From Planctomycetota bacterium (GTDB taxonomy: Bacteria; Planctomycetota; Planctomycetia; Planctomycetales; Planctomycetaceae): a stretch of DNA of 64,000 nt. This document shows positions 6,626 through 25,347 of the stretch, in pieces. A program made the position numbers and the translations under genes. Position 1 is the first letter of the stretch; every line of letters starts with the position of its first letter. The notes beneath the pieces are model-generated. The model made no database searches. It was not told where the DNA came from and saw only the letters and a list, made by a program, of their open reading frames with translations. The stretch is taken from positions 1 through 64,000 of the forward strand of contig JAHZKX010000041.1 in assembly GCA_022600195.1 (NCBI GenBank), read 5' to 3'.

Positions 6626-7705
6626 CTAGTTGGATTCTGGCATTGTTTTCCCACTCAGGTTATAAACATAGGCCATAATTTCCACAAATACTTCATATAG
6701 TTCAAATGGAATTTCCTGACCGGTTTTCACATCACGATACATCTGTCGTGCCAGACTTTTACGTTCAATAATAGGAATCCCATGTTCATTCGCAAGCTTA
6801 CGAATCTGAAAGGCGATCTCACCGGCACCTTTGGCAACAACAACTGGTGCCGGCATCGATTCGGGATCATACTTGATTGCGATTGAAATATGAGTCGGGT
6901 TCGTAACCACTACATCTGCTGACGCCACTTTGGAAAGTTCCTGTGACGTCGCCAGTTTTCGATGTGCTTCACGCCGACGCTGACGAAGCAGAGGATCACC
7001 TTCCATTGATTTCATTTCTTCCCGGATCTCCTGCTTGCTCATCATCAGATCTTTTTCATGCTTCCATTTTTGAAAAGCGAAATCCAACGCTCCCAACAAA
7101 ATCAAAGCCAAAGCCAGCAGAATTCCCAGTTCAACTGTGGAATTAAAAATATCACGCAGAATTGTTTCAGGAGGCGCTCCCATTAACGCGACAAAACTGG
7201 GAAATACCACATAGCTGAACCAGCTCGCTATCAGCACCAGTAAAGTCAATTTCCCCAGACTCACACCTAGCTTCATCAAACCACGAACAGACACGATCCG
7301 CTTGGCACCTTCAATGGGATTCAACCGTTCCCACTTGATTTGCAGTACATCCGGCGAGATCATAAATCCGACTTGAACGATATTCAAAAACACCGCCGAA
7401 ATGAATAATACGAGCATGGTCAAGGCTGTTCCCTGCAGGAACATTTTCACTATCGACTCGCAACGCTGGATGATCAGTACTGGCTCAACGCGCAACCAGA
7501 CGGGAGTTGTTAACGTAGTCTCCATCAGATTTTTCATATCGCTATTGAGGCCAATTGCAAAAAAATAAAGTGCACCGGCCGCTGCTAACATCATGCCGGC
7601 TGCGTTCAAATCAGTACTTTTCGCAATGTTCCCCTTCTCGCGGGCTTCAGTTCGCCTGCGATCGGTGGGCTGTTCGGTTTTTTCTCCTGTATCATTTTCT
7701 GCCAT
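6626..7705 (-). CDS. flhB: FlhB, flagellar type III export switch protein
   Basis: FlhB sits in the flagellar export gate and switches export from rod/hook subunits to filament subunits after cleaving itself. The protein (359 residues) begins with the typical polar stretch GEKTEQPTDRRRTEAREKG, followed by four hydrophobic helices (about 35-210). The cytoplasmic domain contains the autocleavage motif NPTH within VVVTNPTHISIAIKYDP. It is the last gene of the flagellar run, 22 bp after fliR. In many bacteria flhA and flhF follow flhB; here a phosphatase and a two-component system do instead, so flhA must lie elsewhere. Confidence 0.97.
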   Translation of the reverse strand: MAENDTGEKTEQPTDRRRTEAREKGNIAKSTDLNAAGMMLAAAGALYFFAIGLNSDMKNLMETTLTTPVWLRVEPVLIIQRCESIVKMFLQGTALTMLVLFISAVFLNIVQVGFMISPDVLQIKWERLNPIEGAKRIVSVRGLMKLGVSLGKLTLLVLIASWFSYVVFPSFVALMGAPPETILRDIFNSTVELGILLALALILLGALDFAFQKWKHEKDLMMSKQEIREEMKSMEGDPLLRQRRREAHRKLATSQELSKVASADVVVTNPTHISIAIKYDPESMPAPVVVAKGAGEIAFQIRKLANEHGIPIIERKSLARQMYRDVKTGQEIPFELYEVFVEIMAYVYNLSGKTMPESN

Positions 7706-7727: not shown

Positions 7728-8717
7728 TTACATCACGGCACTACGACTTAATTGATCGATGGCCGTCGGAATCGATTCCACCACAATATCTGCTGCTCCT
7801 GATAAAGTAAAAATCAATACGACAAGGCTGATCATCGCGCGTACCGGAAAACCGATTACGAGTACATTGATCTGAGGAACCGTGTGCCCCAGATATCCCA
7901 TCGACAGCGATATCAAAGCACTGATAGCCAATAATGGTGCTGCTACTTTTATTGAGAGCACCAACGATTGATGCATCAATGTCTGTAGCAAATCAAGAGT
8001 ATTCGTGGAAACGATCCCCTCCCCGACAGGGAACACCTGAAAAGTATCGATCAGAGAGGAAAGCATTAACAGATGGCCGTTAACCGGCTCCATGATTAAA
8101 AAAATGGAAATACCAATGAAATACAGATACTGACCGCTGAGCGAAGCATTCATGTCAAAACCAGGATTGAATACTTCTCCTAAAGCCATCCCCGCTTGCT
8201 GATCAATCATCTGACCCGCCATCTGAAGACTTAATAAAATGATATACACACCCAAACCCAGAGAAAATCCTAATGAAAGTTCTCCCAATATCGACCAGGC
8301 ATAATCTAAGAGCGAAGTAGGCATTGTTGACACAAATTTGTAGTCGTTTACAGATAGTTCCTGTGTCCCCTGACGGCCAGCGTTGACGATCAGACTGTCA
8401 AACCGGTCTTGCAAATGCACAGGGACTTCGTCTCTACTAAGTCGGTGATCTTGATTGATATCCATCTCGTAAAAGCCCACCGTTACCTGATCGTGCAAAG
8501 TCGGTGTAATGAGCATCGAAAGGCTCAAAATCAACAAGATACGGATATTTGTAGGAAAGATCGGTTGACCGAATACCGGGCCAATGATCATCAAACCACT
8601 GATCCGTACTACGACCAACGTGAATGCATAAAACTGGAGCATCGCCCATTGCAGAATCTGCCCCGGAGCCAGCTGCAAGAGAGGATTCATCACATATTGG
8701 TCGAGAAGAGCACTCAC
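7728..8717 (-). CDS. fliR: FliR, flagellar export gate protein with EF-hand insertion
   Basis: FliR forms the export gate core with FliP and FliQ. Membrane helices and the C-terminal region (ISLSMGYLGHTVPQINVLVIGFP, split across helices) are typical. The protein is 329 residues against about 260 usual. The excess is a hydrophilic insert at about residues 75-133 between the first helices. It contains a textbook EF-hand calcium loop, DINQDHRLSRDE (86-97: Asp, Asn, Asp, backbone Arg, Ser and Glu at positions 1, 3, 5, 7, 9 and 12), followed by a helix and a second degenerate loop ending ELSVNDYKF. The start is taken as GTG at 8717; an ATG at 8690 is possible. Confidence 0.93.
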   Translation of the reverse strand: MSALLDQYVMNPLLQLAPGQILQWAMLQFYAFTLVVVRISGLMIIGPVFGQPIFPTNIRILLILSLSMLITPTLHDQVTVGFYEMDINQDHRLSRDEVPVHLQDRFDSLIVNAGRQGTQELSVNDYKFVSTMPTSLLDYAWSILGELSLGFSLGLGVYIILLSLQMAGQMIDQQAGMALGEVFNPGFDMNASLSGQYLYFIGISIFLIMEPVNGHLLMLSSLIDTFQVFPVGEGIVSTNTLDLLQTLMHQSLVLSIKVAAPLLAISALISLSMGYLGHTVPQINVLVIGFPVRAMISLVVLIFTLSGAADIVVESIPTAIDQLSRSAVM

Positions 8718-8756: not shown

Positions 8757-9023
8757 TCAAAGGCGGGAAGGAATATTAGTTATCAGATTCGTACTGTATT
8801 CCACCAATAATGAAGTAATCCAGGGCAACGTATATAGAATCGCAAGCACCATCATGACAATTTTGGGAACAAAACTGATTGTCTGATCCTGAATCTGGGT
8901 CACAGCCTGACCAATACTGATCACTAATCCCACAACGACGGCAGTCAGCATCACAGGACCACTGACTTCCAGCATGATTAGTAATCCCTCTCGTCCCAAT
9001 TCCAGAACTGTTGAACTATCCAT
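8757..9023 (-). CDS. fliQ: FliQ, flagellar export gate protein
   Basis: An 88-residue protein with two hydrophobic helices, the length and layout of FliQ, the third core component of the FliPQR export gate. The recognisable central motif is ISIGQAVTQIQDQTISFVPK (near residues 35-54), with the conserved Q-x-x-x-I-Q-D/E-x-T segment between the helices. A GAGG-rich ribosome-binding site lies just upstream of the ATG. It lies between fliP (49 bp upstream) and fliR (39 bp downstream), the standard P-Q-R order. Confidence 0.95.
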   Translation of the reverse strand: MDSSTVLELGREGLLIMLEVSGPVMLTAVVVGLVISIGQAVTQIQDQTISFVPKIVMMVLAILYTLPWITSLLVEYSTNLITNIPSRL

Positions 9024-9072: not shown

Positions 9073-10044
9073 TCAACCGACTGCCCTGATGCTTTCCAAT
9101 AACATTCCCACAGTCAATAACCAGCCATCGATCAAAACAAATAACAAAATCTTAAAGGGTAATGAAATCAAGACGGGAGGCAGCATCATCATCCCCATAC
9201 TGATGAGAATAGAACTGATCACCATATCGATCACTATGAATGGGAGATATAACTGAAAACCAATCAGGAAGGCCGTTTTGACCTCACTTAGCATATAGGC
9301 AGGCAATAAAACTGTCAGCGGAACTTCGTCGTAATTACTGGGGACTTTATAATCTGCTGCTCCTGGAGAACCCGCCAGTGGTTGCTGATAGTCCAGAAAC
9401 ATCCACACCGTATCGCTGTTTCCCGTTAATTCAATTTGATCACTCATGAATTTACGCAGAGGTGCCACTGTTTTTTGAAACGCGACTTCGAGCGAAACCG
9501 GCGATTGCTGAGTCTGGTTCGAGTAAGGAACGATTCCTTCATCGTAGGCTTTTTGCCAAATGGGGGCCATCACCATAATCGTCAAAAACAGACTGAGCGA
9601 TGTGAGTACCTGATTCGGTGGAAGTTGCTGAGTTCCCAGCGCCTGCCTCAACAGACCGAAGACAATCACAAACCGAATGAAACATGTTGTCATGATCAAT
9701 ACGGAAGGTGCTAAACTTAATACGGTCAACAATAAAAAGATTTTCAGCGTCGACGTCAACCCCTGAGGTGATGTCATTTGTTCCACATTCAGCAGGTCTG
9801 GCATTCCAGATGTATTCGTGCCAGGCGCTTGTTGTGTGAATGTCGGCTGAATCTGAGAGGCTTGAGAATTTTGATTGGCACTTCCCTGATTTGAAAGAGC
9901 CTGATTCGTCCTGGCGGGTTGTGCCTGTACCGAAAGAGAACTAACAACGAGTACCAGAAGGCCTGCAACCGCAGACAACACCTTTTTTCGCAAAAAAGTG
10001 GCAGCACCTGGTTTCTGTTGTTGCAGTTCCCCCTGCCTAAGCAT
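9073..10044 (-). CDS. fliP: FliP, flagellar export gate protein with long N-terminal extension
   Basis: FliP is the main subunit of the export gate pore. The FliP domain begins near residue 100 ([19 protein letters not shown]) and shows family motifs such as [20 protein letters not shown] and the [16 protein letters not shown] stretch. I favour the ATG at 10044 (323 residues): GGAG lies about 10 bases upstream and the start overlaps the fliO stop by 8 bp, suggesting coupling; ORF extension to 10065 is possible. FliP is usually about 245 residues. The extra N-terminus has a signal-peptide-like helix ending VQAQPA and about 55 residues rich in Gln, Asn and Ser. Confidence 0.95.
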
Positions 10045-10906
10045 GTCCGGACTCCGCATTTTCATTCAACGACTGTCGAGAAGACTGATGTAACTTGTTT
10101 TGTAATCGACTGACCGCTGAATCGTAATCTGCAAATTCTTCCATCACTGGTGATTCGGAAGATTGTTCCAACTCTGGTTTTTCGATCGGATGAAACGTGT
10201 CAACAGATGGACTCTGTTCTCTCAAACTCGATTTCTTTTGAGTCGCCTGAAATAGATTCAGAAACGTATTATTTGATCGACCGGAATCTGCACGTTCTCG
10301 ACACATCCCCGTGATCAGATCAACTTCAACCGGATCCAAAACTTCGCTGAGCATTTCCAGACCAGCGGGAGAAGATCCTAATATAAGGATTCGAGAACCA
10401 CAGCGTACAAAATGGATCGTCTGACGAGCATCCAGGGGACGCTTTCCTAAAACCTCCATCACCTCCAGAGGCAGATTGGTTGAACCCAGTGGATGATGTT
10501 TTTTAAATAACTTTGCTATAACGAAAATAATCGAAATCACTACTAATAATGCACCAAATGTTCCCCAGATCGAAGGAGCTTGCCGAGGTACCGTATTTTT
10601 AGCCTGACTTTGATCACCCGACTTTTGTCGGTCTATGGGCGTGATCCGTTTAGGAGAGGCCTTGGCTTTCACTTCAGCCTGAGCACTTTGATTCTTCCCT
10701 CTGGATGGCATCGCCTGCTGTGAATATTGATCAGGAAGGGAGCGTACAACCCGCCCGGTAGCTGGCAATCTCACTGCTTCAGTTCGTTGTGGCTGGCGAA
10801 ATCCTGAAGTTTGAACAGCAGGATTTACATCCCCTGAAACTGCACTTGATATGCAACTCAGACTGCAAATCAGTATGAAAACAAATAAATTGAAAAGACG
10901 AATCAT
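10037..10906 (-). CDS. fliO: FliO-like flagellar export assembly protein
   Basis: FliO helps FliP assemble. This 289-residue protein has an N-terminal hydrophobic segment that may be a signal peptide ([19 protein letters not shown]), a polar linker, one membrane helix ([20 protein letters not shown]) and then the short FliO fold: [31 protein letters not shown]. The C-terminal 90 residues are polar and less conserved. FliO is weakly conserved overall, so position (fliN-fliO-fliP) and the fold segment carry the call. It overlaps fliP. Confidence 0.85.
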
Positions 10907-25032: not shown

Positions 25033-25347
25033 CTACATTTGCATATTCTGAATCTCATTATAGGCTTCTAAAAGTTTATTCCGCATTTGAACCATCATTC
25101 TCAATGCCAGATCCGCTTTCTTGATTGATGAAAACACTTCTGCCTGTGTGATATCCTCACCAATCAAACCACCTTCAATCGCCTGCTGTGACTGAACCTG
25201 CAACTGATTGACATTATCGAGTGACTGCAACATCATATCCTTGAAAGAATGTCCGCTGGTCGCAATACCGGCCCCATTCTCATTCATTCCGACAGGTGGA
25301 ATGCCAGGCAAAAATGTGTTTCCGATTTGACTGATTGAATTTGTCAT
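25033..25347 (-). CDS. fliE: FliE, MS-ring/rod junction protein
   Basis: FliE links the rod to the MS-ring and is the first exported part. From the ATG at 25347 it has 104 residues, the family length; AAGGAAG lies about 8 bases upstream, so the longer frame from 25380 is not preferred. The C-terminal motif is diagnostic: QAEVFSSIKKADLALRMMVQ, then MRNKLLEAYNEIQNMQM. It lies between flgC and fliF in the usual flgB-flgC-fliE-fliF order. Confidence 0.95.
   Translation of the reverse strand: MTNSISQIGNTFLPGIPPVGMNENGAGIATSGHSFKDMMLQSLDNVNQLQVQSQQAIEGGLIGEDITQAEVFSSIKKADLALRMMVQMRNKLLEAYNEIQNMQM

Follow-up and report, generated by a model that had tools for sequence, protein, structure and literature searches.

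The core of the export gate is regarded as one architecture across flagella and injectisomes in the account of PMC6593402. According to published structures FliE starts the rod at the periplasm-facing top level of the gate. FliP contributes a three-helix periplasmic domain (FliPP), located between the transmembrane segments TM2 and TM3, of which a Thermotoga structure is available (5H72; PMC5542437). In the description given by PMC8239009 the homology between FliP and FliR assigns the corresponding junction in FliR to the slot of this domain at the periplasm-facing top level, and a plug in FliR seals the export channel. This slot is nearly empty in ordinary FliR. We analysed fliR in a stretch of 64,000 nucleotides from a Planctomycetota bacterium of the genus Gimesia or very close to it, family Planctomycetaceae (contig JAHZKX010000041.1, positions 1 to 64,000; hereafter the window), and found strong evidence from sequence and predicted fold that its product carries an EF-hand pair at this junction.

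The window protein shares with the FliR of Salmonella (SctT in injectisomes) the Pfam family Bac_export_1 (PF01311; E = 2.1e-44, 152.3 bits against a cut-off of 27.8, with a match along the core), the fold and the gene neighbourhood fliP-fliQ-fliR-flhB. It exceeds the Salmonella chain (264 residues) by 65 residues, part of which is supplied by a longer N-terminus. When 38 of the 40 FliRs with an insert are combined in a profile, the alignment with Salmonella FliR stops at about residue 63 and restarts at 68, so that about 59 inserted residues stand against about four in Salmonella; two alignments show residues 63 and 68 almost next to each other in the Salmonella-type protein. The borders proposed in the initial annotation, residues 75-133, map exactly to 8495-8319. 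The same annotation had placed the insert in the first non-membrane loop, but it actually lies in the second connection between helices, the one that joins helices 56-85 and 136-175 of the model. Its length ranges from 56 to 71 residues among the FliRs that carry it.

An EF-hand is built around a 12-residue loop with D at position 1, D, N or S at positions 3 and 5, a hydrophobic residue at position 8 and E or D at position 12. Scored as D.[DNS].[DNS]..[LIVM]...E, this loop occurs in 70 FliR rows out of 167. These are the 40 and 30 rows with an insert of this kind; the other 97 lack the loop, and the insert does not align with ordinary FliR loops. Many of the rows look like the same genome drawn from two collections, and the rows lacking the pattern include a contig-end fragment that begins after the loop (L121) and two long loops without it (L163, L051). 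The rarity of the domain in FliR that had been presumed from the window is thereby borne out. Shuffling the window insert yielded the pattern in 376 of 100,000 cases; together with the distribution over the rows and the conservation in 31 of 31 inserts described below, this ruled out a chance motif.

Conservation was assessed in 31 of the 40 inserts, nine near-copies being omitted. The first hand fits the consensus throughout, with D1, N/D3, N/D5, [LIV]8, E12 and additionally P14 kept in all 31 inserts; in the named set a single row (L112) has S at loop position 14. In the second loop the hydrophobic position 8 is retained in 31/31, E/D12 in 24/31 and an aromatic residue at position 13 in 30/31, and ligands 1, 3 and 5 are mostly gone. 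The picture of one good and one degenerate loop thus stands, and since no full ligand set was found in hand 2 of these inserts, the term pair denotes the fold and not two sites.

Profile searches gave a mixed result with respect to the EF-hand assignment. Weighing against it, the Pfam EF-hand models gave no match to the window FliR or to the isolated insert at E up to 10, a negative limited by the HMMER filters, which discard most matches above E of about 0.1. The profile search recommended along with the EF-hand proposal therefore failed for the window sequence itself and succeeded for its homologues, as 20 of the 31 inserts matched EF-hand_7 with E no higher than 1, the lowest being 2.5e-4. 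The profile of the 31 inserts retrieved 468 sequences from the Protein Data Bank (PDB) at E up to 10, and the best 60 of these were all named as EF-hand proteins; the best E of 5.3e-12 sums several hands, and for single hands the values are weak, the top match reaching no better than 0.18. No further loop of this pattern was detected in the window among frames of at least 80 amino acids.

Models of the insert obtained with AlphaFold2 can be superposed at about 2 Å on frequenin, calmodulin and calcineurin B. They consist of two helix-loop-helix units, each loop contributing a strand, as in EF-hand pairs; in the full-length model the helix that leads into hand 1 continues the FliR helix before it without a break. 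The last helix is seen in the model of the insert alone and is absent from the full-length model. In predicted fold and loop 1 ligands the insert is comparable to calmodulin, frequenin/NCS-1, calcineurin B and centrin, from which it differs in its mostly ligand-less second loop, in P at loop position 14 and in being embedded in an export-gate protein. Taken together, sequence and fold strongly argue for the EF-hand identity suggested by the initial annotation. Among open-licence papers in PMC we found no title on an EF-hand in flagellar FliR or on a link between planctomycete flagella and calcium or EF-hands, which does not imply absence from print.

To follow the distribution of the insert, 99 relatives were searched (17 of the genus, 44 further genera of the family and 38 genomes outside the family), and FliR was recovered in 89 of them. 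The insert is present in 17/17 genomes of the genus and in 24 of the 44 other genera of Planctomycetaceae (23 read whole; in G060 the gene is divided between two contigs, one of which holds the loop). The FliR of an uncultured Gimesia genome is 99% identical to that of the window, which is therefore Gimesia or a very close relative. Of the remaining 20 genera, 16 have a FliR-type protein without the insert, several very diverged, and four gave no match. Outside the family 32 of 38 genomes matched (G076, G079 and G097 not read), and the 29 FliRs that were read, which come from other families of the class, all lack the insert. Among 79 named loci 30 have the insert, including L109, which is labelled Rhodopirellula (Pirellulaceae); the label is taken as wrong since the tree places L109 within Planctomycetaceae, grouped with L126 (100/82) beside G047. 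In two surveys covering 294 genomes of the phylum, nine of the matches listed run through the insert, all in the family, and every other match listed begins at query residue 126 or later, although a distant FliR could conceal an insert there. A one-genome oddity or misassembly was ruled out by its presence throughout the genus and in the 24 further genera.

In a tree built from FliR without the insert columns, using 65 of the 118 rows of the first tree (35 with insert, 30 without), the trait changes three times, compared with 21.8 times for shuffled labels (0/500 as low). The root of this tree was not inferred, many forks are open and bootstrap is unsettled, and the direction of change is not established; L045 changes place between the two trees. 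Three changes are most simply accounted for by an early gain followed by few losses, and the insert is old and retained. Within the genus (17 genomes) the ratio of non-synonymous to synonymous polymorphism (pN/pS) reaches 0.204 in the insert and 0.134 in loop 1, against 0.069 and 0.084 in the flanking core, with synonymous sites near saturation.

Two insert-less relatives have unusual FliR tip loops. In L163, from a metagenome-assembled genome of Planctomicrobium piriforme, the loop comprises 66 residues without EF pattern and includes a scrap resembling a decayed EF-hand (GGDGRLHRNE); in L055 (G046) it is a shorter, unlike linker. Both group together (100/100) and could represent remnants after loss. 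Several genomes of the family encode two different FliR-type proteins, namely G042 (L039, L079), G044 (L076, L091) and G052 (L054, L081); in G042 L039 has the EF-hand and L079 lacks it, which suggests that a second flagellar system, or a related system for secretion, is present.

A search of the window's own genome with the insert profile gave 12 matches, counting FliR, with E no higher than 0.1. The next best after FliR were three stretches of a single frame of 393 residues on contig C55 (L172), with E from 2.8e-9 to 7.8e-8, the best covering positions 6-57. Its start resembles a signal peptide by eye, and the protein is apparently exported. Unlike the window FliR it is free-standing and lacks any FliR part, but it shares with the insert the signature LDxNxDxx[IL]xx[DE]E[VLA]P, and one of its copies likewise has, by eye, a ligand-poor second loop. 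The same E-x-P signature in a protein of the same genome suggests that the EF-hand pair came from a local donor.

We favour, with moderate confidence, the explanation that the EF-hand pair is a pad ordered by calcium, which stabilises either the ring of FliP5-FliR1 or the beginning of the rod and goes back to a planctomycetal insertion into FliR. Presumably an ancestor belonging to the family acquired, in one or a few insertions into the short FliR tip loop, an EF-hand pair of the kind found in apparently exported planctomycetal proteins. The N-terminal half of FliR is built like FliP; the insert would fill the slot taken by the periplasmic domain in each of the five FliP subunits, and FliR would therefore gain a domain of roughly comparable size, standing sixth in the ring that faces the periplasm. 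Our own profile alignment of FliP and FliR was weak, and Hhalign in global mode gave nothing useful. The periplasmic side of the insert is well supported by the published structures of relatives. Calcium binding is likely, given that the ligands are kept everywhere with E at position 12; because ligand conservation is complete in loop 1, this loop would bind one calcium, while loop 2, poor in ligands, would be its partner and pair with it through a strand. The site may be kept filled by periplasmic calcium, and the ordered pad may contact the FliP neighbours, FliE or, during assembly, FliO. No matching change was seen in the periplasmic length of FliP (found in 100 of 108 loci) or in the open-frame length of FliE (44 of 59 genomes, compared by eye and without statistics). 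One lineage thus added a domain of metal-binding type to a single-copy subunit, in the slot that FliP fills five times; the insert represents a natural test of the role of this slot and gives an experimental handle on the part of calcium in the assembly of the flagellar gate.

The canonical loop 1 with E12 and its fully conserved ligands would also suit a calcium sensor, whose reversible binding would make assembly or secretion at the gate respond to external calcium and so serve as a checkpoint on flagellum building. FliR is present once per gate (PMC11673145), and PMC13171946 describes, for Caulobacter, an EF-hand protein of the periplasm that belongs to a stress-regulatory circuit. However, the ligands are kept in one of the two loops, which leaves no cooperative pair, calcium at this outward-facing location is probably always high and likely steady, and there is no regulatory partner to point to, no search for one having been made. 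Since a single site is retained and calcium outside is expected to be steady, a sensor seems unlikely, and it is for the same reasons quite improbable that the EF-hand of FliR completes the ring of the five FliP domains only with calcium bound; in that case gate closure or rod initiation by FliE would wait for calcium on the right side of the membrane. An effect of calcium on the gate, as raised by the initial annotation, is less probable than a structural role, since the insert lies in the slot of the FliP periplasmic domain and away from the plug.

A calcium-independent spacer, for which the EF fold serves solely as a compact pad and metal binding is incidental, would agree with the mostly ligand-less second loop, the variable length of the insert and its absence from some relatives. 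It is nevertheless improbable, since a pure spacer should not hold ligands and D1, N/D3, N/D5 and E12 are kept in 31/31 inserts while neighbouring positions vary. Models preceding cryo-electron microscopy (cryo-EM), as described in PMC5113899, had the first cytoplasmic loop of FliR near FlhA, and an insert on the cytoplasmic or channel side could act on gating beside the FliR plug or FlhA/FlhB. This appears very unlikely, as the homology derived from cryo-EM puts the junction at the periplasm-facing top according to PMC8239009, the C-terminus of FliR is given as periplasmic in PMC7064499, and the stretch aligned to the plug (residues 175-191) is separate from the insert (residues 75-133). The likeliest role of the EF-hand pair is that of a calcium-ordered structural pad and not of a cytoplasmic calcium switch.

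Table. Features of fliR, its insert and the associated genes (positions in the window unless another contig is given).
Feature	Position	Strand	Remarks and basis
fliR	7728..8717	minus	329 aa, GTG start, carries the EF-hand insert
EF-hand pair insert, FliR residues 75-133	8319..8495	minus	EF loop pattern in FliR rows; predicted fold
Hand 1 incoming helix, residues 74-85	8463..8498	minus	full model helix 56-85; insert-only model helix 2-13
Canonical EF loop 1, residues 86-97, DINQDHRLSRDE	8427..8462	minus	positions 1, 3, 5, 8, 12 kept in 31/31
Inter-loop helix, residues 100-113	8379..8420	minus	full-length and insert-only models
Degenerate EF loop 2, residues 114-125	8343..8378	minus	strand 120-122 retained; conservation and models
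Hand 2 last helix, residues 123-130	8328..8351	minus	insert-only model helix 51-58; not helix in full-length model
Stretch aligned to Salmonella FliR plug (106-122), residues 175-191	8145..8195	minus	alignment; plug as given in PMC8239009
flhB	6626..7705	minus	next gene downstream of fliR in export-gate cluster; PF01312, E 1.2e-113
fliQ	8757..9023	minus	PF01313, E 7.4e-26
fliP	9073..10065	minus	own periplasmic domain at equivalent place; PF00813, E 4.6e-71; alignment
fliE	25036-25263		same flagellar cluster
L172, EF-hand repeat protein	G000:C55:99773-100621 (99773-100366 in the comparison with the insert)		393 residues, six loops of the pattern

The fliR gene has fliQ-fliP-fliO on one side and flhB on the other, and this flagellar cluster continues with fliN, fliL (slightly below its Pfam cut-off), motB and motA and also holds a FlgE-like gene, fliK, a gene for a FliI-type ATPase, fliH, fliG and fliF. 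A pseudogene was ruled out by the open frame, the insert pN/pS of 0.20 and the Pfam-intact neighbouring flagellar genes. In the fliP product the Pfam domain starts only at residue 112, the N-terminal stretch exceeding what a plain signal peptide needs. Residues 209-215 of the window FliR (MEPVNGH) comprise three residues more than Salmonella FliR ahead of the conserved GH in the alignment, and a similar stretch also occurs in some relatives without the EF-hand, for instance in L043 (MEPINGD).
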